Made by a program: the position numbers and the translations under genes
Assembly (NCBI GenBank): GCA_017938695.1
Contig: JAGBBA010000027.1
Span: 1 to 63,423 of the forward strand
DNA: 63,423 nt
DNA from: Clostridia bacterium
GTDB taxonomy: Bacteria > Bacillota > Clostridia > Christensenellales > Aristaeellaceae
Direction: 5' to 3'
Notes under the pieces: generated by a model
The model's input: only the letters and a program-made list of their open reading frames with translations
Databases searched by the model: none
Told to the model about the DNA's origin: nothing
In this document: piece after piece, positions 11,119 to 63,423 of the stretch
How positions within the stretch are numbered: the first letter of the stretch is position 1
Layout of the letters: every line of letters starts with the position of its first letter

Positions 11119-11557
11119 AGTGGCCTGATTTGTGATAACATGGATCTGCTACAATACCATTACCACAAGTCTTCGCGCTTGCTGGTACAGGGAGAGGCGC
11201 CGGCCACGGCGCCTTTTTGCATGCCGGTTCGAGCTTTGGGAAGCGTTCTTGCCAACTTCTTCCGACTTTATGCTATCACACTGCCGCGTCTTTGTCAAGG
11301 CCAAAAAGCAAAATAATACTCGAATAGGAGAAAAAAGCTCTCCATATTAGATGTTAAATACGATATTTGTGTAAATAAGGCTTGACAAAGAGATGGAAAA
11401 CATGATAGTATAATCTACGGCTACTTTTGCCATTGTACGTACGCGCTATTATCACGAGAAAAAGGATCACCGAATTAGTATAGAGCTATGGAGCACAAAG
11501 TGCAATGGAGTATTTCGATAAGAAAGGAGCACCGGGCTTGTCGCTCGGAATGTTGTT
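11119..11557. other. Intergenic region with a hairpin terminator and possible small RNA
   Basis: GGCGCC (11196-11201) pairs with GGCGCC (11208-11213) around GGCCAC... and TTTTT follows at 11214-11218, a plus-strand terminator with no gene in front of it. A weak promoter (TGATTT, then TACAAT at 11150-11155, 18 bp apart) would give an RNA of under 70 nt. Further on, TTGACA at 11382-11387 and GATAGTATAAT at 11404-11414 may drive the ATPase gene, though the spacing of the best boxes is not ideal. Confidence 0.45.
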
Positions 11558-12895
11558 ATGTTTACAAAAATCAGGATGCAAAATTTTCGTTCATTCAAGG
11601 ACTTGACGTTCGATCTGTGTGAAAAGTCTGATACACCAAAACATATTGCCGTCATATATGGTGAAAATGGTTCCGGCAAGTCAAACTTGGCATCTGTTTT
11701 TGTTCTGCTAAACGAACTCATGCAGACAATGGATGTCCGCGATCAATATGAAGAACTTCTCCAACAAAAGTCGGTTTTTAGCGATGAGAATCTGGAGCAA
11801 TTGATGCGCCAGCGTTTACTTTCTGGTATGCGTGATATCCGTGCGATCATTCAAGATTATCGTATGGTTGATAATGCTGAGCCTATTGTTGTAGATTATG
11901 AATTTATGATTAACGGGTATCCTGGATCATATAGCATTACCCTTGGCGAACAAGAAATTATCCATGAGCACCTTGAGTATAGGCTTAATCGAAGACGCGG
12001 TGTGTACTTTGATTGCTCGAGGGAAGCAATTACAATAAATAAAAGCATTGTCACTGACAGAGACTTGTTTGCTGATATAAAGCAAGCTGCGAAAAAGTAT
12101 TGGGGAAAGCATTCCCTTTTGGCTATTATTCAGCATGAACTCGATGATAAATCCGAAGCATATGGTCAAGGCAATATTACTGGTAATTTCGAGGATGTTC
12201 TGTATGAACTGCGTTTAGTGTCTTGCTATATTGGCTATGGCACGCGTGATTGGGAAAGTTTGTTTTCTCCATTTCAGATTCTCAACAAGCCCATTTCTGG
12301 GAAAATGTCGGTTGATAACGAGGAACAATTGGCTCTTGCAGAACAGATTTTCTCAAGTTTCTTTTCAGCTATTAATTCTAACGTAAAGGGACTATCATAT
12401 CGAAAAACATATACTGATCGCTATATTGATTATACCCTACAAATGATCAAGTATGTTGCCGGAGAATACCGAACGATTGACTTTGCCAGAGAATCAAAGG
12501 GTACTTATCAGTTGCTAATGGTTCTGTGCTATCTACTGGTGGCTTGCCTCGGTGGTATTGTTATTCTGGATGAAGCTGATTCGGCAATCCATGATTTGTT
12601 GTTTAAGAAGATTATTCAGGAAATTGCTCCGGAAATCAAAGGCCAAATCATTTTTACCACACACAATACGATGTTGATGGAAGCGGATCTAAATCGGAAT
12701 TCGATATATGTTTTGCTTGAGGAGGAGAAAGGCGAAAAGCTAATTCGCTGTATTTCTGACCATGTAAACAGAACATATATTACGAACAATCTGCGAAACA
12801 AGTATTTACATGGCGAATACGGCGGCCTGCCGGATGTAAGCCGGATCGATTTTGCTAATCTGATTCTATCTCTTGCTGAAAAGTTGATGCAGTAA
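11558..12895 (+). CDS. AAA15 (OLD/RecF-like) ATPase
   Basis: 445 aa. The start MFTKIRMQNFRSFKDLTF is the typical first strand of AAA15/ABC-type ATPases, Walker A is YGENGSGKSN (34-43), the Walker B is VILDEADS, and a following FTTHNT gives the H-loop. A helical insertion lies between. No TOPRIM or HNH nuclease domain is fused, unlike OLD or RloC. Such stand-alone ATPases act in abortive-infection or nuclease-partner systems (for example with RloB-type partners), but no partner gene is adjacent here. AAAGGAG is about 30 bp upstream of the ATG, an unusual distance. It is directly followed by the recombinase and shares the AT-rich composition of the element. Confidence 0.75.
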   Translation: MFTKIRMQNFRSFKDLTFDLCEKSDTPKHIAVIYGENGSGKSNLASVFVLLNELMQTMDVRDQYEELLQQKSVFSDENLEQLMRQRLLSGMRDIRAIIQDYRMVDNAEPIVVDYEFMINGYPGSYSITLGEQEIIHEHLEYRLNRRRGVYFDCSREAITINKSIVTDRDLFADIKQAAKKYWGKHSLLAIIQHELDDKSEAYGQGNITGNFEDVLYELRLVSCYIGYGTRDWESLFSPFQILNKPISGKMSVDNEEQLALAEQIFSSFFSAINSNVKGLSYRKTYTDRYIDYTLQMIKYVAGEYRTIDFARESKGTYQLLMVLCYLLVACLGGIVILDEADSAIHDLLFKKIIQEIAPEIKGQIIFTTHNTMLMEADLNRNSIYVLLEEEKGEKLIRCISDHVNRTYITNNLRNKYLHGEYGGLPDVSRIDFANLILSLAEKLMQ

Positions 12896-12924
12896 AGTCG
12901 AGAAATACATAATGGAGAAATGTC

Positions 12925-14412
12925 ATGAAAGCTGTCATCTACGCCCGCTATTCTTCCGACAACCAGCGTGAAGAGAGTATTGAAGGCCAGATCCGCGAGT
13001 GTACTGCATTCGCCGTGAAGAATGGTATCACCATCTTGCAGCACTACATTGACCGCGCTTTCTCCGCAAAGACGGATAATCGTCCGGAATTCCAGCGTAT
13101 GGTTAAAGACAGCGGCAAGCACCTTTTTGATATGGTGATCGTTTGGAAGCTGGATCGCTTTTCCCGTAACCGCTATGACAGTGCACGGTACAAGGCACTC
13201 CTGAAAAAGAATGGTGTAAAGGTAGTATCTGCCACAGAGGTTATCTCAGAAGGTGCAGAAGGCATTATCCTGGAATCTGTCTTAGAAGGCTATGCCGAGT
13301 ACTATTCCGCTGATCTTGCTGAAAAGGTCGGGCGTGGTTTGACGGAGAACGCTCTTAAGTGCAAATTCAATGGTGGCACAAAGCCCATTGGCTATGTGAT
13401 TGACAGCGAGCAGCATTTCCAGATCGACCCGTTTACTGCGCCTTTTGTTCGTGAAGCCTTCCAGCGATATGCTGAGGGCGCAACCATGAAAGAACTGGTA
13501 GTATGGCTAAATGATCGCGGCATCCGCAACAGTCGAGGCTTGCCGCTGAACTTTAACAGCATCCAGCGAATGCTCAACAACCGCCGCTATATCGGCGAAT
13601 ACTCATTCCGGGATATTGTCATTCCTGACGGCATCCCCGCCATCGTCCCGAAGGAGCTGTTCGACCGGGTACAGGAGAAGTTGGAGAAAAACAAGAAAGC
13701 GCCTGCTCGGCATAAGGCAGAAGACGATTATTTGCTGACAACAAAGTTGTTCTGTGGATACTGCGGCGCATACCTGTGTGGAGAGAGCGGAACGAGCCGG
13801 ACTGGCGATGTCCATCACTATTACAAGTGTGTTTCGGTCAAGAAAAAGCGGACTGAATGCCATAAAAAGCCTGTCCGCAAAAACTGGATTGAAGATATTG
13901 TTATTCGTGCCACCATGCAGATGGTCATGGATGATGACGCGGTGGAGGCTATCGTGGCGCTCCTGATGGAGCTCCAGGACAAAGAGAACGCAAATCTGCC
14001 TTTGTACGAGAAGGAACTACGTGAGACTAACATCAGCATTCAAAATTTGCTGAATGCAATCCAGCAAGGTATACTGACCCGCTCTACCAAGGAACGACTG
14101 GAACAGTTGGAGGAGCTGCGCGACGAGCTGGAAGGTAAGATTGCTTGCGAGAAACTGGCAAAGCCTCGAATCAGCGCAGAATTCATGACCTTCTGGCTGC
14201 ACCGTTTCCGCAAGCTGGATGTGACCAAGCAAGAGCATCGGAAGATGCTGATTGACACCTTCGTTAATGCGATCTTCTTGTATGATGACAAGCTGGTCAT
14301 CACATACAACTTCAAAGAAGGAACAACGACCATCACCTTTGCGGAGCTGCAAAGTGCTATTGACGCGGTGTGTGGTGGTTCGGATATGGATTCGTTTGGT
14401 GCACCAGAGTAA
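12925..14412 (+). CDS. Large serine recombinase (integrase of the element)
   Basis: 495 aa. Resolvase domain 1-145 with YARYSSDNQ (nucleophile Ser10) and VWKLDRFSRN; the Recombinase domain follows at about 165-265 (GGTKPIGYVID, then NSRGLPLNFNSIQRMLNNRRYIG); a zinc ribbon at about 275-315 with CGYCGAYLCG and a later Cys pair; then a coiled-coil region at about 345-420. This is the full arrangement of integrases that insert and excise Clostridia integrative and mobilizable elements. GGAGA precedes the ATG. The gene ends at the right edge of the block, where such integrases are usually found, next to a hairpin similar to that beside tRNA-Leu. Confidence 0.92.
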   Translation: MKAVIYARYSSDNQREESIEGQIRECTAFAVKNGITILQHYIDRAFSAKTDNRPEFQRMVKDSGKHLFDMVIVWKLDRFSRNRYDSARYKALLKKNGVKVVSATEVISEGAEGIILESVLEGYAEYYSADLAEKVGRGLTENALKCKFNGGTKPIGYVIDSEQHFQIDPFTAPFVREAFQRYAEGATMKELVVWLNDRGIRNSRGLPLNFNSIQRMLNNRRYIGEYSFRDIVIPDGIPAIVPKELFDRVQEKLEKNKKAPARHKAEDDYLLTTKLFCGYCGAYLCGESGTSRTGDVHHYYKCVSVKKKRTECHKKPVRKNWIEDIVIRATMQMVMDDDAVEAIVALLMELQDKENANLPLYEKELRETNISIQNLLNAIQQGILTRSTKERLEQLEELRDELEGKIACEKLAKPRISAEFMTFWLHRFRKLDVTKQEHRKMLIDTFVNAIFLYDDKLVITYNFKEGTTTITFAELQSAIDAVCGGSDMDSFGAPE

Positions 14413-14413
14413 A

Positions 14414-14446
14414 AACATCCGAACCAATGGTTCGGATGTTTTCTTT
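14414..14446 (+). terminator. Recombinase terminator; candidate right end of the element
   Basis: AACATCCGAACC (14414-14425) pairs with GGTTCGGATGTT (14429-14440), loop AAT, then TTCTTTAT. The stem core (TCCGAACC/GGTTCGGA) and the preceding GCACCA match the sequence after tRNA-Leu at 608-665. Confidence 0.75.
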
Positions 14447-14463
14447 ATGCACAAACAAAGGCA

Positions 14464-14495
14464 GAAAAACAGCCGCTGATCCTTGCATCAGCGGC
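14464..14495 (-). terminator. Terminator of the zinc-ribbon peptide gene
   Basis: On the minus strand GCCGCTGAT pairs with ATCAGCGGC around GCAAGG, followed by TGTTTTTC. It ends transcription of the gene at 14515-14754. Confidence 0.8.
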
Positions 14496-14514
14496 CTGTG
14501 CTGTTCACATCCAA

Positions 14515-14754
14515 TCAGCTGCCGGGGTGAATCACAACATCGGTCTGAACGCCGTGCATCACTTCCACGCCGCCGCACTTGGGGCAGGCACCTTCGCTGA
14601 CCTGGAAGGCCACCCGACACTTGAAGCAGGTGACATACCAGCCCAGGGGCAGCCTTTCTTCGTTAAGGAAAAACACATCGCTGATGCCGCCGGAAACGCG
14701 GTCCAGCTCGCTGTCGTCCAGTTCCTGCAGGTTCTTCTTTTCATGCTTACACAT
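14515..14754 (-). CDS. Peptide with double-glycine leader and zinc ribbon
   Basis: 79 aa from the ATG at 14754, 8 bp after AAGGAG; the longer frame to 14808 has no such site. Residues 11-22, LDDSELDRVSGG, fit the LSxxELxxIxGG leader of class II bacteriocins and related exported peptides that are cut after GG by C39-peptidase ABC transporters. After it comes WYVTCFKCRVAFQV and ACPKCGG, two CxxC pairs of a rubredoxin-like zinc ribbon. No C39 transporter or immunity gene is nearby. Either this is an exported metal-binding peptide or the leader resemblance is accidental. Confidence 0.6.
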   Translation of the reverse strand: MCKHEKKNLQELDDSELDRVSGGISDVFFLNEERLPLGWYVTCFKCRVAFQVSEGACPKCGGVEVMHGVQTDVVIHPGS

Positions 14755-14857
14755 CGCTTGATTCTCCTTGCATATGAAATGAATGGTGCAGTTTTTGCGC
14801 GGTATCAATCTATGCTTATTATAGCCCGGTTGCCTCCGATAGTCAACAAATCGCAGA

Positions 14858-14889
14858 AGAAAACGCTCCGAGCCAGCCGGTCCGGAGCG
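14858..14889 (-). terminator. Terminator of the sigma/DUF4349 operon
   Basis: On the minus strand CGCTCCG (14889-14883) pairs with CGGAGCG (14870-14864), followed by TTTTCTTCT. It lies just after the DUF4349 stop codon. Confidence 0.75.
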
Positions 14890-14906
14890 CGATTTGGTGT
14901 ATCAGC

Positions 14907-15962
14907 TTACTTCTTCTTTTTGCGGATGACCTTCCCCAGAATGATCACCACGGCCACGATCACGATGAAAGGCAGGGCGGCGGCGATGAACACGGTCATG
15001 TCGGCCATGAACTCCACGAAGGACTCCCAGCCGGTGGAAAGGGCGTCGGCGATGCGCTCGCCCAGGGACTTCTCGGGGTCGGTGATGCTGTCGGCGGGCT
15101 TTTCTTCCTGGAGGGAGATGTCCACCGTGGCGTAGTCCACCTGGCGGTCGGTGCTGTTCAGGCTGGCCTGCAGGCGGTCGATCTGGTACTGGGTGTCGGC
15201 AATCTGGCTTTCCAGGGCCAGCAGGTCGCTCAGGTCGGCGGCGTCGGTCACCAGGGCCTGAAGGCGATCCATCAGGGCCTGCTGGGTGGCCAGGCGGGCC
15301 TTGGTGTCGTAGTAGGACTCAGTCACGTCGTCGGCGGATTCCGACCGACGGGTCACGCGGCCGGTATTGCCAGCATCGGCCAGGAAGGCATCCAGCTGGT
15401 CGGAGGGGATGCGCATGGTCAGGTTGGCGGTGCGGCGGTAGGAGCTGTCGTTCTCGGAAGAGAAGGCGATCCAGCCGCCCAGGCTTTCGCACTTGGCGCG
15501 CAGGGCAGCCAGGCTTTCCTCAAAGGTCTGGGTGGTGATGGTCAGGCTGGCGTTGCGGATGATCTTCTTCTCTTCGCCCATTTCCTGGGCGGCAGGGGCG
15601 TCTGCACCGCTGGCCTTGGCGAGCATCACGGTGTTCTCAGCCGCATCGTAGGAGGTGCTGCGCATGCTGTAACCGCTGGTGCTGCCGTAGTCGTATTCGT
15701 AGTCGTAGCTGCTTTCGTAGGTTGTGTCGCTGAACTTAGGGGACAGGTCGTCCCGGGTCAGGATCGTACCGCCGATGATGAACACCGCGGCGGCAGCTAC
15801 GGAGAGGATCCGGGTCCAGGTGGTTTTCTTGCTGGGCTTTTGCATAGTTTCTTCCTCCACTTGCTTCATCCAGCCTGCGTGAAAGTCCTCCGGCATGGGG
15901 GGGACATCGTCCTGCAGGCTCTTGAGCTCTTTCTCCAGGAGGTCCATGGGTTCCTGATGCAT
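14907..15962 (-). CDS. DUF4349 membrane protein, probable anti-sigma factor
   Basis: 351 aa. A short cytoplasmic N terminus (LLEKELKSLQDDVPPMPEDFHAGW, similar in style to that of the DUF4179 protein) is followed by a membrane helix at about 48-66, a Ser/Tyr-rich linker, then the DUF4349 body from IIRNASLTITTQTFEESL, with a coiled coil (LESQIADTQYQIDRLQASL). A second membrane helix (VFIAAALPFIVIVAVVIILG) and a lysine-rich tail end it. The start overlaps the sigma stop codon (TAATG) and GGAGGAG is 7 bp ahead. Both features point to control of that sigma factor in the membrane. Confidence 0.82.
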   Translation of the reverse strand: MHQEPMDLLEKELKSLQDDVPPMPEDFHAGWMKQVEEETMQKPSKKTTWTRILSVAAAAVFIIGGTILTRDDLSPKFSDTTYESSYDYEYDYGSTSGYSMRSTSYDAAENTVMLAKASGADAPAAQEMGEEKKIIRNASLTITTQTFEESLAALRAKCESLGGWIAFSSENDSSYRRTANLTMRIPSDQLDAFLADAGNTGRVTRRSESADDVTESYYDTKARLATQQALMDRLQALVTDAADLSDLLALESQIADTQYQIDRLQASLNSTDRQVDYATVDISLQEEKPADSITDPEKSLGERIADALSTGWESFVEFMADMTVFIAAALPFIVIVAVVIILGKVIRKKKK

Positions 15963-59119: not shown

Positions 59120-60086
59120 GAATACTTTGCCGGATAAATGCGCGGTGGCCCGCGACCTGATGCCCCTGTGCATCGACGGGACGGCCAGCGACGCCAGCCA
59201 GCGGCGGGTGAACAAGCATGTGGTGGATTGTCCGCCCTGTGCGACGGTGTACCAGGAAATGCAGACGAACATCGAGCTGGATGTGCCTGACCAGCAGGAA
59301 ACGGCGCAGTTCGACACAGCTGTGAAAAAGGTGAAGCACAAGCACGCCTGGCGCAAGCTGCGCAACGTGCTGCTGGGCATCGTACTGGCACTGGTGGCGT
59401 GTGCCGGGCTGGCCTACGGGTATTACTGGTACTTTGTGGAGGATGTGCCGCTGCCCATCGAGCTGTATGAGATGGAGATAAACCTGAGCACACCCCAGCG
59501 TGCAGAAACGCCGGTGATCATCCGAACCAAGAACATGCCCAAGCCTGCTAAGATGCACATTCAGGTGCAGTTCGACGGCTCGGTGATGAATGACGACGGC
59601 GAACTGGAACCCAGCTGGGTGATGTACATCTGGGCATCCACCACCCGCTCGACGGATCTGGATACCTGCGGCTATACGGATTATAACTACTACGCCTTCG
59701 ACCAGACGTATGTGGCGGGTTCCTTCATGATCAACAACGAATTGTACAAGGTGAACAGCGTCTACCGCGGTGCACCTACGGCAGAGCAGGAGCTGGCATT
59801 CAAGCCTGATGTGAAGAAATTGAAGTGGACGACCATCGGCAATCTGGTGCTGCGCAACGTGGCCAGCCTGGATATCGTGGGTGGCGAAAGAGCGGTGATG
59901 CCCTTCGTGACCACACCGAGCACGGATATGTTTGATCCATTTGTTACGCCTAAGACCAACGAGAACCAGGGCTTTGCGATGTATGGCGAGGTCAAGCCGG
60001 CGCAATCCACTCCCACACCCATGCTGACGGTGGAGCCCCAGGCGACCGTGATCCCTCAGGTGACCAAGGAGCCTAACGCGGACTGA
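59109..60086 (+). CDS. Membrane anti-sigma factor with zinc-finger (zf-HC2) domain
   Basis: 325 aa from ATG 59109. CAVARDLMPLCIDG, then VNKHVVDCPPC gives the HxxxCxxC anti-sigma zinc motif (His59-Cys66 region). A membrane helix follows at about 82-100 (VLLGIVLALVACAGLAYGYYW), and an exported part of some 220 residues has no domain I recognise; it ends in a Pro/Thr-rich tail. The overlap with the sigma gene and the zinc motif identify it as the cognate anti-sigma factor. Confidence 0.88.
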   Translation: MSNKNTLPDKCAVARDLMPLCIDGTASDASQRRVNKHVVDCPPCATVYQEMQTNIELDVPDQQETAQFDTAVKKVKHKHAWRKLRNVLLGIVLALVACAGLAYGYYWYFVEDVPLPIELYEMEINLSTPQRAETPVIIRTKNMPKPAKMHIQVQFDGSVMNDDGELEPSWVMYIWASTTRSTDLDTCGYTDYNYYAFDQTYVAGSFMINNELYKVNSVYRGAPTAEQELAFKPDVKKLKWTTIGNLVLRNVASLDIVGGERAVMPFVTTPSTDMFDPFVTPKTNENQGFAMYGEVKPAQSTPTPMLTVEPQATVIPQVTKEPNAD

Positions 60087-60324
60087 CGCACTCGACGATT
60101 TCCACCAGGATCACATCGTCGCCGATTTTGCAGATGTTGTCCCAGGGAATGACGATGCCGCAGCGTTCGCCACGAAGCAGCGCAGCCAGGCTGAACTCGC
60201 CGGGCACGACCAGGGCGGTCACCCGGCCGTCGGCTGCGCAGAACTCGATATCCATGGGCTTGCCCAGGGATGCGCCTGTCAGGGTGTTGATCACGTCCTT
60301 CTGCTTGAGATCACCCAGGGTCAT
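60073..60324 (-). CDS. YlmC/YmxH-type PRC-barrel protein
   Basis: 83 aa from ATG 60324; GTG 60333 is an alternative. MTLGDLKQKDVINTLTGASLGKPMDIEF and LVVPGEFSLAALLRGE...IPWDNICKIGDDVILVEI match the sporulation-linked YlmC/YmxH family. It is a small PRC-barrel protein of unknown function, conserved in spore formers. Its end converges with the anti-sigma gene and overlaps it by 14 bp. Confidence 0.85.
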   Translation of the reverse strand: MTLGDLKQKDVINTLTGASLGKPMDIEFCAADGRVTALVVPGEFSLAALLRGERCGIVIPWDNICKIGDDVILVEIVECVSPR

Positions 60325-60391
60325 GGAGATCACCGACCTTTCGGGATAGCATATGCGTGAAAAGCCGGGAATGTGCTGACTGCGGCAGACA

Positions 60392-60489
60392 CCTCATCAG
60401 TCGCCTTGCGGCGACAGCTTCCCCTCAAGGGGAAGCCTTTTTTTGCCTTCCCCTTGAGGGGAGGGTGGCCGAAGGTCGGATGAGGTGGA
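60392..60489. repeat. Repeat class C with a terminator hairpin
   Basis: CCTCATCAGTCGCC, GGCGACAGCTTCCCCT, AGGGGAAGCCTTTTTTT and then the inverse CTTCCCCTTGAGGGG and GGATGAGG. The second half is an inverted copy of the first, so the whole is one long imperfect palindrome. Similar to 39211-39263. Nothing else is recognised between 60325 and 60560. Confidence 0.85.
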
Positions 60490-60571
60490 TAGCAACGGGC
60501 TGGACAAGTCGAATGTAGCGGTGCTTGCAGAAAACTTTGATATTTTTCTCACAGAATCCGCGAATTTCCCC

Positions 60572-60600
60572 TGTTCAGAAGGGAAAAAGTGTGCTATACT
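60572..60600 (+). promoter_or_regulatory. Possible promoter of the NifU-like gene
   Basis: TGTTCA (60572-60577) and TATACT (60595-60600), 17 bp apart; the -35 is weak. Confidence 0.5.
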
Positions 60601-60659
60601 ATCATGGACAATGAATGTCCCCATGTCACGACTATCTCATGATAGGAGGAACCAATCCG

Positions 60660-61361
60660 ATGCTTTACACCAAGGAAGTTGAAGAAATGGTATGCGTCGC
60701 GAAGGGCCCCAACCACGGCCCCGCGCCCATCCCGGAAGAGGGCAAGTGGATCCAGGCCAAGGAGATCAAGGACATCTCCGGTCTGACTCACGGTATTGGC
60801 TGGTGCGCCCCCCAGCAGGGCACCTGCAAGCTGACCCTGAACGTGAAGGAAGGCGTCATCCAGGAAGCTCTGGTCGAGACCATCGGCTGCTCCGGCATGA
60901 CCCACTCCGCCGCCATGGCCAGTGAGATTCTGCCCGGCAAGACCATTCTGGAAGCACTGAACACCGACCTGGTGTGCGATGCTATCAACACCGCTATGCG
61001 CGAGCTGTTCCTGCAGATCGTGTACGGCCGCACCCAGTCCGCCTTCTCTGACGACGGTCTGCGTATCGGCGCTGGCCTGGAAGACCTGGGCAAGGGCCTG
61101 CGCAGCCAGGTGGGCACCATGTACGGCACCCTGGAAAAGGGCCCCCGTTACCTGGAAATGGCCGAAGGCTATGTGCTGAAGATCGCCCTGGATAAGGACA
61201 ACCAGATCTGCGGCTATCAGTTCCTGTCCCTGGGCAAGATGATGGACGCCATCAAGAAGGGCATGAGCCCCAACGAGGCCTACGAGAAGAACATCGGCAC
61301 CTACGGCCGCTTCAAGGCCGAAGACGGCGCGGTCGCCTGGATCGACCCCCGCAAGCAGTAA
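60660..61361 (+). CDS. NifU-like iron-sulfur scaffold protein partnered with GGGtGRT
   Basis: 233 aa. Cys residues fall in WCAPQQGTC and TIGCSGMTHSA, as in IscU/NifU N-terminal domains; MASEILPGKTILEALNTD is the following helix. It is longer than IscU (about 130 aa), with a C-terminal extension. In Clostridia this version is encoded next to a GGGtGRT protein, an arrangement I recall from annotation; an iron-sulfur or metal role is supposed. AGGAGG precedes the ATG. The next gene begins 19 bp after its stop codon. Confidence 0.82.
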   Translation: MLYTKEVEEMVCVAKGPNHGPAPIPEEGKWIQAKEIKDISGLTHGIGWCAPQQGTCKLTLNVKEGVIQEALVETIGCSGMTHSAAMASEILPGKTILEALNTDLVCDAINTAMRELFLQIVYGRTQSAFSDDGLRIGAGLEDLGKGLRSQVGTMYGTLEKGPRYLEMAEGYVLKIALDKDNQICGYQFLSLGKMMDAIKKGMSPNEAYEKNIGTYGRFKAEDGAVAWIDPRKQ

Positions 61362-61380
61362 TTAAAGGAGGTATGTGATA

Positions 61381-62397
61381 ATGGCTCTGTTTGAAAACTA
61401 CGAAGGCCGCATGCCTCAGCTGCAGCCTGTTCTGGAAAAGTACGGCTTTGCCTCCTGGGAAGACCTGAAGGCTTACAACAACTCCAAGGGCGTGGACGGC
61501 TACGGCATCACCGAAGGCATCCAGCCCATCTGCTTTGAGAATGCCAAGTGGGCCTATGAACTGGGTGCCGGCATCGCTCTGAAGAAGGGTGTCAAGACCG
61601 CTAAGGAAGCCGCCGTGTGCATCGGCGAGGCCCTGCAGGCCTTCTGCATCCCCGGTTCCGTTGCTGACCAGCGTCAGGTTGGTCTGGGCCACGGCAACCT
61701 GGGTGCCATGCTGCTGGACGAAGCTACCGAGTGCTTCGCTTTCCTGGCTGGCCACGAGTCCTTCGCTGCTGCTGAAGGTGCCATCGGCATTGCCCGCAAC
61801 GCCAACAAGGTTCGTAAGACCCCCCTGCGCGTGATCCTGAACGGCCTGGGCAAGGACGCCGCCATGATCATCAGCCGCATCAACGGCTTCACCTATGTGG
61901 AGACCAAGTACGACTACCTGTCCGCCGACGTGAAGGAAGACCACGCTCTGACCGTTGTGAAGACTGTGGCTTACTCCGATGGCGAGCGCGCCAAGGTGAA
62001 CTGCTACGGTGCTGACGATGTCCGCGAAGGCGTGGCCATCATGTGGCACGAGGGCGTGGGCGTTTCCATCACCGGTAACTCCACCAACCCCACCCGCTTC
62101 CAGCATCCCGTTGCCGGCACCTACAAGAAGGAAATGATCGAGGCTGGCAAGAAGTACTTCTCCGTTGCCTCCGGCGGCGGCACCGGCCGTACCCTGCATC
62201 CCGACAACATGGCTGCTGGCCCTGCCTCCTACGGCATGACCGACACCCTGGGCCGTATGCACTCCGACGCTCAGTTCGCTGGCTCCTCTTCCGTGCCCGC
62301 TCACGTGGAGATGATGGGCCTGATCGGCATGGGCAACAACCCCATGGTTGGCGCTACCGTTGCCGTGGCTGTGGCCGTGGAGAACGCCTCCAAGTAA
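61381..62397 (+). CDS. GGGtGRT protein
   Basis: 338 aa. Family-defining motif ASGGGTGRTLHPDNMAAGPAS near residue 262, then DAQFAGSSSVPAHVEMMGLIGMG as the following blocks. The ATG at 61381 is 9 bp after AGGAGG. Function unknown; it is found with the NifU-like protein as here. Codon use is that of highly expressed genes. Its last 18 codons plus stop are duplicated exactly downstream of the next gene (63101-63158). Confidence 0.88.
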   Translation: MALFENYEGRMPQLQPVLEKYGFASWEDLKAYNNSKGVDGYGITEGIQPICFENAKWAYELGAGIALKKGVKTAKEAAVCIGEALQAFCIPGSVADQRQVGLGHGNLGAMLLDEATECFAFLAGHESFAAAEGAIGIARNANKVRKTPLRVILNGLGKDAAMIISRINGFTYVETKYDYLSADVKEDHALTVVKTVAYSDGERAKVNCYGADDVREGVAIMWHEGVGVSITGNSTNPTRFQHPVAGTYKKEMIEAGKKYFSVASGGGTGRTLHPDNMAAGPASYGMTDTLGRMHSDAQFAGSSSVPAHVEMMGLIGMGNNPMVGATVAVAVAVENASK

Positions 62398-62399
62398 GT
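62342..62399 (+). repeat. Direct repeat, left copy (end of the GGGtGRT gene)
   Basis: 58 bases starting CCATGGTTGGCGCTACCG and ending CCTCCAAGTAAGT, identical to 63101-63158. It contains the gene's last codons and TAA. Confidence 0.95.
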
Positions 62400-62456
62400 C
62401 TATCTGGAAGGACAGAGTGATTCTGTCCTTCTTTTTTTAAAGAGGAGGAGAAGTAG

Positions 62457-63062
62457 ATGGTTATCATTTTGGCCTACGTCATACAAGGCCTTATCTTTGG
62501 CTTTATCGCAAAATACATTGCGGAAAGCAAAGGCTATGATACGGGTTTTGCTTGGGGTTTCTGGTTGGGCATTATTGGTTTGCTGGTAGTGGGTTTTCGA
62601 CCTACGATTTTACAGACTACGACTTCACATGCTACAACACTGAAACAAAGTGAGTATTGGAGTAATCTTTCTGCTGCAAAGAGTACTCCCTCGGGATGGA
62701 CATGTGTATGCGGTCAGGATAATGCGTATGGGCTATCTTACTGCACTAAGTGCCGCCGCTCTAAGGATGAAAGTGCAAATCTGAGAAAACCAAAGGTTGA
62801 ATGCCACTATTGTGGGGCAAAAAACAATGCAAGCAACGAAGAATGTTTTGCTTGCGGGCGCTCTTTGAAAGATTCAATTAACACATTGGCAGCGCAGACG
62901 GTCAAACAAGAAACGCCTCCAACGTTAGAAATGCCGAAACAAGTTGTTGGTGATGTCGACAGCCTGGAAGCGTTGAAAAAACTTGCAGAATTGCGAGATT
63001 TAGGTGTGTTGACTGAGAATGAATTCCAAGAAAAGAAAGCGACTATCATGGCTAAGATATGA
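62457..63062 (+). CDS. Membrane protein with zinc ribbons and SHOCT-like tail, in a cassette
   Basis: 201 aa. Two hydrophobic helices at the N terminus (MVIILAYVIQGLIFGFIAKYI, GFWLGIIGLLVVGF), a CVCGQDNAYGLSYCTKC zinc finger and a CHYCGAKNNASNEECFACG zinc ribbon, then a C-terminal LEALKKLAELRDLGVLTENEFQEKKATIM that fits SHOCT. AGAGGAGGAG precedes the ATG. It is far more AT-rich than its neighbours and lies between the 58-bp direct repeats, so it is probably recently acquired. The function is unknown. Confidence 0.75.
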   Translation: MVIILAYVIQGLIFGFIAKYIAESKGYDTGFAWGFWLGIIGLLVVGFRPTILQTTTSHATTLKQSEYWSNLSAAKSTPSGWTCVCGQDNAYGLSYCTKCRRSKDESANLRKPKVECHYCGAKNNASNEECFACGRSLKDSINTLAAQTVKQETPPTLEMPKQVVGDVDSLEALKKLAELRDLGVLTENEFQEKKATIMAKI

Positions 63063-63100
63063 TGCGATATGGGTGAAACGGGGAATTTCGGAGTGACAAT

Positions 63101-63158
63101 CCATGGTTGGCGCTACCGTTGCCGTGGCTGTGGCCGTGGAGAACGCCTCCAAGTAAGT
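63101..63158 (+). repeat. Direct repeat, right copy
   Basis: 58 bases identical to 62342-62399. Here the reading frame has no start in place, so it is not a gene; it is the remnant of, or the duplicated, GGGtGRT 3' end. Confidence 0.95.
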
Positions 63159-63257
63159 TAAATCAAGGCTTACAGGGAACTCTCTCAGAGAGGCGTTATT
63201 ATGTAGAGGAAGGTTTACCCCTCCTCGTCATGAGTCGCGGGAAATACAAGTAATTCA

Positions 63258-63306
63258 AGCAGTTATGGCTTGAAGGGAAACCTTCAAGTCCATAGCTGCT
63301 TTTTCT
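63258..63306 (+). terminator. Terminator
   Basis: AGCAGTTATGG-CTTGAAG pairs with CTTCAAG-TCCATAGCTGCT (one unpaired base), then TTTTTC. It ends the transcript coming from the GGGtGRT region; the gap 63063-63332 otherwise holds only the repeat copy. Confidence 0.85.
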
Positions 63307-63332
63307 ATTGCAGCAGAAAGCGAGGATACCCC

Positions 63333-63423
63333 ATGAAACTGACCTATCGCCGCTGCGGAGACTACTACCTGCCCAACATCGGCATCCCTGCCGAGGACAT
63401 GCGCCCGCTTGGCAAGTACGGCA
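63333..63423 (+). CDS. TnpV-type transposon-associated protein, start only
   Basis: 30 residues, MKLTYRRCGDYYLPNIGIPA followed by EDMRPLGKYG, match the N terminus of TnpV proteins carried by Clostridia transposons. GAGGAT lies before the ATG. The gene runs out of the window, so length and completeness are unknown. It suggests that another mobile element begins next to the cassette. Confidence 0.7.
   Translation, partial: MKLTYRRCGDYYLPNIGIPAEDMRPLGKYG

Follow-up and report, generated by a model that had tools for sequence, protein, structure and literature searches.

The window analysed here is a whole contig of 63,423 bp, taken from a genome of 2.53 Mb (G000) that is assembled in 76 contigs and is 87.5% complete. 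Near its right end lies a NifU-like gene, followed by an intact GGGtGRT gene and a smaller gene that is set between two direct repeats of 58 bp (Table 1). The two copies are identical and are 759 bp apart from start to start. Each is made of two nucleotides of a proline codon, 17 complete codons, the TAA stop codon and GT, and represents the 3' end of the GGGtGRT gene, for which an alternative start is possible at 61381. A preliminary description of this DNA had recognised a one-gene cassette between perfect copies of the last 18 codons and stop of an upstream gene that stays intact. We found the same arrangement, with 17 complete codons plus two nucleotides in place of 18. Since the next longest repeats returned by a repeat search of positions 60000-63423 are short and imperfect, a perfect 58-mer at this spacing is far beyond chance. 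Plain tandem duplication was rejected as the origin of the repeat; the smaller gene is present once only.

The DNA between the copies, hereafter the islet, has a GC content of 0.434 against 0.566 for the contig. It is AT-rich, as had been noted before, though not unique in that, as 36 of the 628 overlapping 700-bp windows of the contig have a GC content as low. The list of open reading frames has no integrase-sized ORF between the repeats, in agreement with the earlier remark that no integrase lies inside, and the single ORF there encodes a protein with a SHOCT domain. Positions 60300-63423 gave no Rfam match at gathering score. When positions 62300-63200 were compared with INPHARED, six unannotated human-gut 'Bacteriophage sp.' records matched at query positions 1-82, which lie inside the GGGtGRT gene.

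The contig ends 265 bp past copy 2. An ORF at 63333-63422, open at the contig end, matches TnpV over its first 30 codons (PF14198, E 6e-6; 26.6 bits against a cut-off of 27). Because of this resemblance, another mobile element is probably located downstream of the islet.

Table 1. Features of the GGGtGRT locus in the window
Feature	Position	Strand	Basis
NifU-like gene, upstream of the target gene	60615..61361	+	PF01592 just under cut-off; NifU-type NCBIfam models weak
GGGtGRT gene, target, intact, 340 aa from GTG	61375..62397	+	PF14057, E 2.9e-184, 612 bits
Repeat copy 1 (putative attL): end of the target gene with its stop and GT	62342..62399	+	Repeat search
Terminator-like hairpin followed by T run, between target gene and islet gene	62406..62432	+	Predicted intrinsic terminator
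Islet gene, 201 aa, with hydrophobic N-terminus, cysteines as in zinc ribbons and C-terminal SHOCT	62457..63062	+	ORF list, Pfam
Putative degenerate outer part of att site, directly before copy 2	63089..63100	+	Alignment to 24 detached gene ends
Repeat copy 2 (putative attR), adjoining the old downstream sequence	63101..63158	+	Repeat search, G014 comparison
Old downstream sequence, common to the window and the G014 empty site	63159..63191	+	Alignment of 63101-63191

Comparison of the locus in related genomes

The locus is syntenic in G014, G007 and G004, with neighbouring genes that are about 79-83% identical. Positions 63101-63191 of the window match the sequence directly behind the gene in G014 at 94.5% over 91 bp, so that copy 2 and the DNA following it are the old site and the DNA from copy 1 to copy 2 was added. 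The empty site for which the preliminary description had proposed to look in relatives is thus found in G014, and the islet is also absent from G011. A homologous islet is present in G007, in the same order and with its own repeat, the copies of which differ at 2 of 54 positions. The identity of the copies in the window had been taken to mean a recent event; this could be so at most for the present genome, given the diverged copies of the G007 twin, and gene conversion could keep copies identical.

That the repeat is an artefact of fragmented metagenome assembly might be suspected from the number of contigs, the nearness of the contig end to copy 2 and the many contigs of the family that end within the GGGtGRT gene. 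We consider it very improbable, because the diverged twin in G007 comes from a separate assembly and copy 2 continues into the sequence found behind the gene in G014. Neither of the two outcomes that had been named in advance as speaking against an insertion has therefore appeared: the repeat recurs in another assembly, and relatives do not all carry the same structure with diverged repeats.

Contigs of the family often start or stop within the GGGtGRT gene, and the high conservation of this gene between species may break metagenome assemblies. Between genomes, the NifU-like/GGGtGRT pair (60531-62399 in the window) has 93-97% identity where the genes around it have about 80%, a sign either of exchange or of unusually strong constraint. 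Upstream of the NifU-like gene lies a palindromic element (60390-60493) that recurs in G007 just past copy 2 (L100:4322-4442; 77.7% identity over 121 columns) and looks like a dispersed repeat.

The SHOCT protein of the islet is matched in 7 of the 18 genomes of the genus (E 0.001), and close matches are confined to G000, G007 and G004. A SHOCT gene also occupies the place of the islet in G004, and another small gene occupies it in G002 and G003; none of the three genomes has a second gene end there. When the islets of the window and of G007 are aligned, the first ~420 columns are 45-73% identical by block and the last ~300 columns are 79-100% identical. The alignment makes the two islets mosaics, the right parts of which were exchanged recently, by whatever route, since they reach 79-100% identity where the neighbouring genes have about 80%.

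Mosaic islets and small genes without a second gene end, the latter found in G004, G002 and G003 and more distantly at L182, would be expected if the second gene end had come in through homologous or illegitimate recombination and not through a site-specific recombinase, for example when a donor fragment holding a GGGtGRT end and a SHOCT gene was joined at the gene end. The high identity of the gene between species would also favour homologous exchange. We nevertheless regard this origin as unlikely, because viral contigs and genomes of other genera repeatedly show detached gene ends next to integrases, and because copy 2 of the islet has a degenerate form of the outer boundary of these ends, as described below.

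Detached gene ends and tyrosine integrases

A motif scan of the gene end, which finds exact fits only, detected the motif in 180 of 308 genomes of the family, with at least two copies in eight. In two of these eight (G005 and G044) we took the second copy for part of another, incomplete gene or for the overlapping end of a contig. G111 has a 396-aa tyrosine integrase 165 bp behind the gene and oriented towards it, and a second gene end 19.4 kb away; the left-end sequence found after the first end recurs after the second, as though a further element came next in tandem. In both G286 and G289 a full-length related integrase precedes the second copy by ~0.2 kb; as this copy is not on the contig of the first, the two gene ends are paired provisionally. 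A gene end is likewise found ~0.2 kb behind a related integrase in G280 and G288, the integrase of G288 being a fragment. The gene end of G280 has the left-end sequence of the G289 element behind it, an order compatible with a circular or tandem junction.

Three of these integrases, aligned and read by eye, share R, K, H-x-x-R, H and Y where tyrosine recombinases have them, and the integrases searched match PF00589 and phrog_1. A profile of the three, searched in the 308 genomes at E 1e-40, listed 25 hits in 22 genomes. Eight hits score above 190 bits, and six of them have the gene-end motif in their stored flanks; among the 17 lower-scoring hits the motif is found at none of the 13 with stored loci. 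Integrase remnants are also found behind the gene, at ~0.3 kb in G016 and at ~0.6 kb in G002. At the same threshold the profile found no close relative in the G007 assembly and none in the 87.5% complete assembly of G000; the best match to these integrases in G000, from a separate search, has 27% identity (E 3.5e-10).

G155 has three separate gene ends without the gene (L110:8139 on the minus strand, L111:8489 and L112:450). They sit in common stretches of 180-250 bp that are 70-84% identical, and tblastn found no related integrase near them. A dUTPase behind the gene in G018 was considered as a sign of a prophage and dropped, as the DNA beyond it has no phage sign by eye. No rate was drawn from the 59 regions downstream of the gene that were read by eye.

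The gene-end motif is also found in 29 viral contigs of IMG/VR, in which the gene body was sought by tblastn with five GGGtGRT proteins. Twenty of these contigs have the gene end without the gene body, three have the whole gene and the remaining six run up to the limit of the stored sequence. A relative of the G111 integrase, used as the single query at E 1e-3, lies within ~0.25 kb of 6 of the 20 detached ends (L206, L210, L213, L217, L223 and L224). At L196, on the same contig as L206, the gene end is flanked to the left and right by GTGGACAAA-type repeats and has the integrase to one side of it, which is the layout of an attP. The closest named phage integrase in INPHARED, that of Clostridioides phage phiCDKH02, is 35% identical to the one at L196. 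L197 was found through its integrase and has a divergent gene end, recognised by eye; the motif scans missed it because they find exact fits only. A longer piece of the gene is present at 4 of the 20 detached ends (L207, L211, L220 and L226), and the boundary is therefore not universal.

Outer boundary of the candidate attachment site

All of 24 detached ends, which include by appearance the near-duplicates L212/L219, L208/L215 and L213/L225, start with GG-N-AA-Y-AA-Y-CC before ATGG. At the corresponding boundary the window has GTGACAATCC and G007 has GTAACAATCG, a degenerate form with one base fewer. Shuffled sequences reached the boundary score of the window in 7 of 2000 trials and that of G007 in 3 of 2000, and random positions of the window reached it in 10 of 3000 for each. 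Since the two islets are homologous, the two tests are not independent and count effectively as one. A simple pattern for arm-like repeats found none at the left end of the islet; the same pattern is absent or single in 7 of 10 elements tested.

These data bear on whether the islet could be a non-autonomous mobile cassette, which would be excised as a circle and integrated at GGGtGRT 3' ends by an integrase supplied in trans from a phage or island. Its compactness, its perfect repeats and the diverged twin in another species (G007) would suit such a cassette, as would the recent exchange of islet parts, with 79-100% against 45-73% identity in the alignment columns and about 80% in the neighbouring genes. 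We consider it rather improbable, however, as we saw no circle, integrase or arm-like repeats, found a close integrase in neither host assembly and found no copy of the islet at another gene end. Of the earlier proposal that a circular cassette carrying a copy of the gene end was inserted here, or that recombination duplicated that end, the addition of DNA with a gene-end copy behind an intact gene still stands, but the circular form has neither a sign of its own nor an integrase in the islet.

The islet protein and its possible expression

The islet gene had been described as a membrane/zinc-ribbon/SHOCT gene. The SHOCT domain scores beyond the Pfam cut-off (E 3.2e-7, 30.3 bits), while zinc ribbons are matched only below it. 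PADLOC gave no match for three SHOCT proteins, and for the window protein all NCBIfam matches are far below cut-off and PHROGs returned families of unknown function only, the best being phrog_2700 at residues 135-199. In the viral contigs, 56 stretches fit a peptide pattern for SHOCT relatives and none was confirmed. It had been suggested to look for the zinc-ribbon/SHOCT protein at other gene ends: a gene-end repeat surrounds 1 of 21 loci with SHOCT relatives, and this one (L175) is the G007 locus.

A distant SHOCT gene (29%) is located behind GGGtGRT in the Oscillospiraceae MAG SIG509 (L182:3948-4424), with its own consensus-like promoter by eye and no gene-end repeat. A 107-aa protein of the G111 island resembles the hydrophobic N-terminus of the SHOCT protein at 26 of 57 positions, and at L178 the start of a SHOCT relative coincides with the end of an ORF that we interpret as a serine recombinase. 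These two cases place such proteins on mobile DNA. The G111 island holds two similar modules (L098:5845-10605 and 11394-15929), each of which encodes a membrane-like protein of 107 aa and, after it, a very long repetitive one (1470 and 1395 aa) with RCC1-like and other repeats.

It had been proposed that the highly transcribed host gene could drive the islet gene. This would be hindered by the predicted terminator between the two genes, and similar hairpins are seen by eye at that place in G007, G004, G003 and G002. As we found no forward-strand promoter-like site in 62300-63300 either, read-through into the islet gene is a possibility only. Accounts of the GGGtGRT protein as highly expressed in vivo in gut bacteria (PMC11204068) and of a GGGtGRT-NifU pair within the iron stimulon of Bacteroides thetaiotaomicron (PMC10434189) suggest that even weak read-through could matter. 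A more far-reaching view would make the GGGtGRT locus an exchangeable slot for single genes, in which membrane/zinc-ribbon cassettes behind a short terminator are moved by co-resident phage or island integrases and fed by read-through; we regard it as speculative and quite improbable.

Discussion

Here, we have described an islet of one gene between a GGGtGRT gene and an exact copy of its 3' end. We think it likely that the GGGtGRT 3' end is the attB of elements with tyrosine integrases, that the repeats of the islet are attL and attR, and that the islet is a CIME-like remnant without integrase. An att site of such elements is the most likely identity of the repeat, which goes beyond the preliminary description. 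What can be read from the sequences themselves is the repeat, the empty site in G014, the diverged twin in G007 and the related integrases at detached ends elsewhere.

How the islet could have formed is suggested by these elements. The GGGtGRT 3' end would serve as attB for prophages and islands in gut Clostridia. An attP with the last codons of the gene would recombine with the gene end through the integrase, and since it carries these codons, integration would restore the gene and leave the 58-bp repeats as attL and attR. A recombinase of this kind may thus have placed the islet as part of a larger element, the core of which, including the integrase, would later have been lost by deletion, shrinking the islet to one cargo gene. 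The islet as it stands probably cannot move on its own. A crossover between the two 58-bp copies would delete it precisely and restore an empty site, and its movement would be limited to such loss or to mobilisation in cis with a neighbouring element. We would like to point out that several findings count against this reading: an integrase is missing from the islet; G004, G002/G003 and L182 have SHOCT or other small genes without a second gene end; G000 and G007 have no close integrase; the left end has no arm-like repeats; and 4 of 20 detached ends have longer gene pieces. An element holding both the SHOCT gene and such an integrase was not found.

Integrase-less islets at gene ends are of a known kind. 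CIMEs are elements that have lost their integration and transfer genes and kept attL and attR, according to one account (PMC5704250). In Streptococcus salivarius, classical CIMEs of 1.2-13 kb and gene-free microCIMEs of 130-220 bp are found at the 3' ends of protein genes, according to another (PMC7563491). The present islet is similar in that it has cargo between a putative attL and attR at the 3' end of a protein gene, with no integration or transfer genes, and in that tandem elements appear at the GGGtGRT site elsewhere. It differs in size, its ~0.7 kb and one gene falling between the classical CIMEs and the microCIMEs as reported there, and in its target, which is GGGtGRT and not rpmG, rpsI, fda or rplL. 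The attL and attR flanks are represented, at the level of sequence, by the direct repeats, the empty site and the degenerate boundary, and the loss of integration and transfer genes by the SHOCT ORF alone between the repeats. No parental ICE or IME with the SHOCT gene was found; the related integrases are seen in viral contigs as well as in islands. The islet fits a CIME by its structure, and its descent from an ICE or IME is putative.

Dehalococcoides provides a similar case. There, 15 ssrA islands without an integration module were read by the authors as possible CIMEs (PMC3146451). As at the islet, direct repeats of a gene 3' end bound these islands, but there a serine recombinase, an RNA-gene target and cargo of reductive dehalogenase and other genes are involved (PMC3146451). 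Among prophages and islands with phrog_1/PF00589 integrases, in turn, related integrases adjoin copies of the GGGtGRT end, whereas the islet has none and is in this respect no autonomous element. It resembles an integron cassette in being a unit of one promoter-poor gene, but its flanking repeats are a host gene end, and a general repeat search, run without an attC model, listed no compact inverted repeat at copy 2 as a candidate attC.

Among the papers searched, few of them from subscription journals, none names GGGtGRT as an integration site in its accessible text. Our results suggest that phages and islands of gut bacteria attach repeatedly at the GGGtGRT 3' end, and knowledge of this site would help in setting the limits of prophages and islands in these genomes. 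The islet would be a natural example, on a very small scale, of gene capture at a site of this kind, and since empty, filled and diverged states exist within one genus, its origin and loss can be tested directly.
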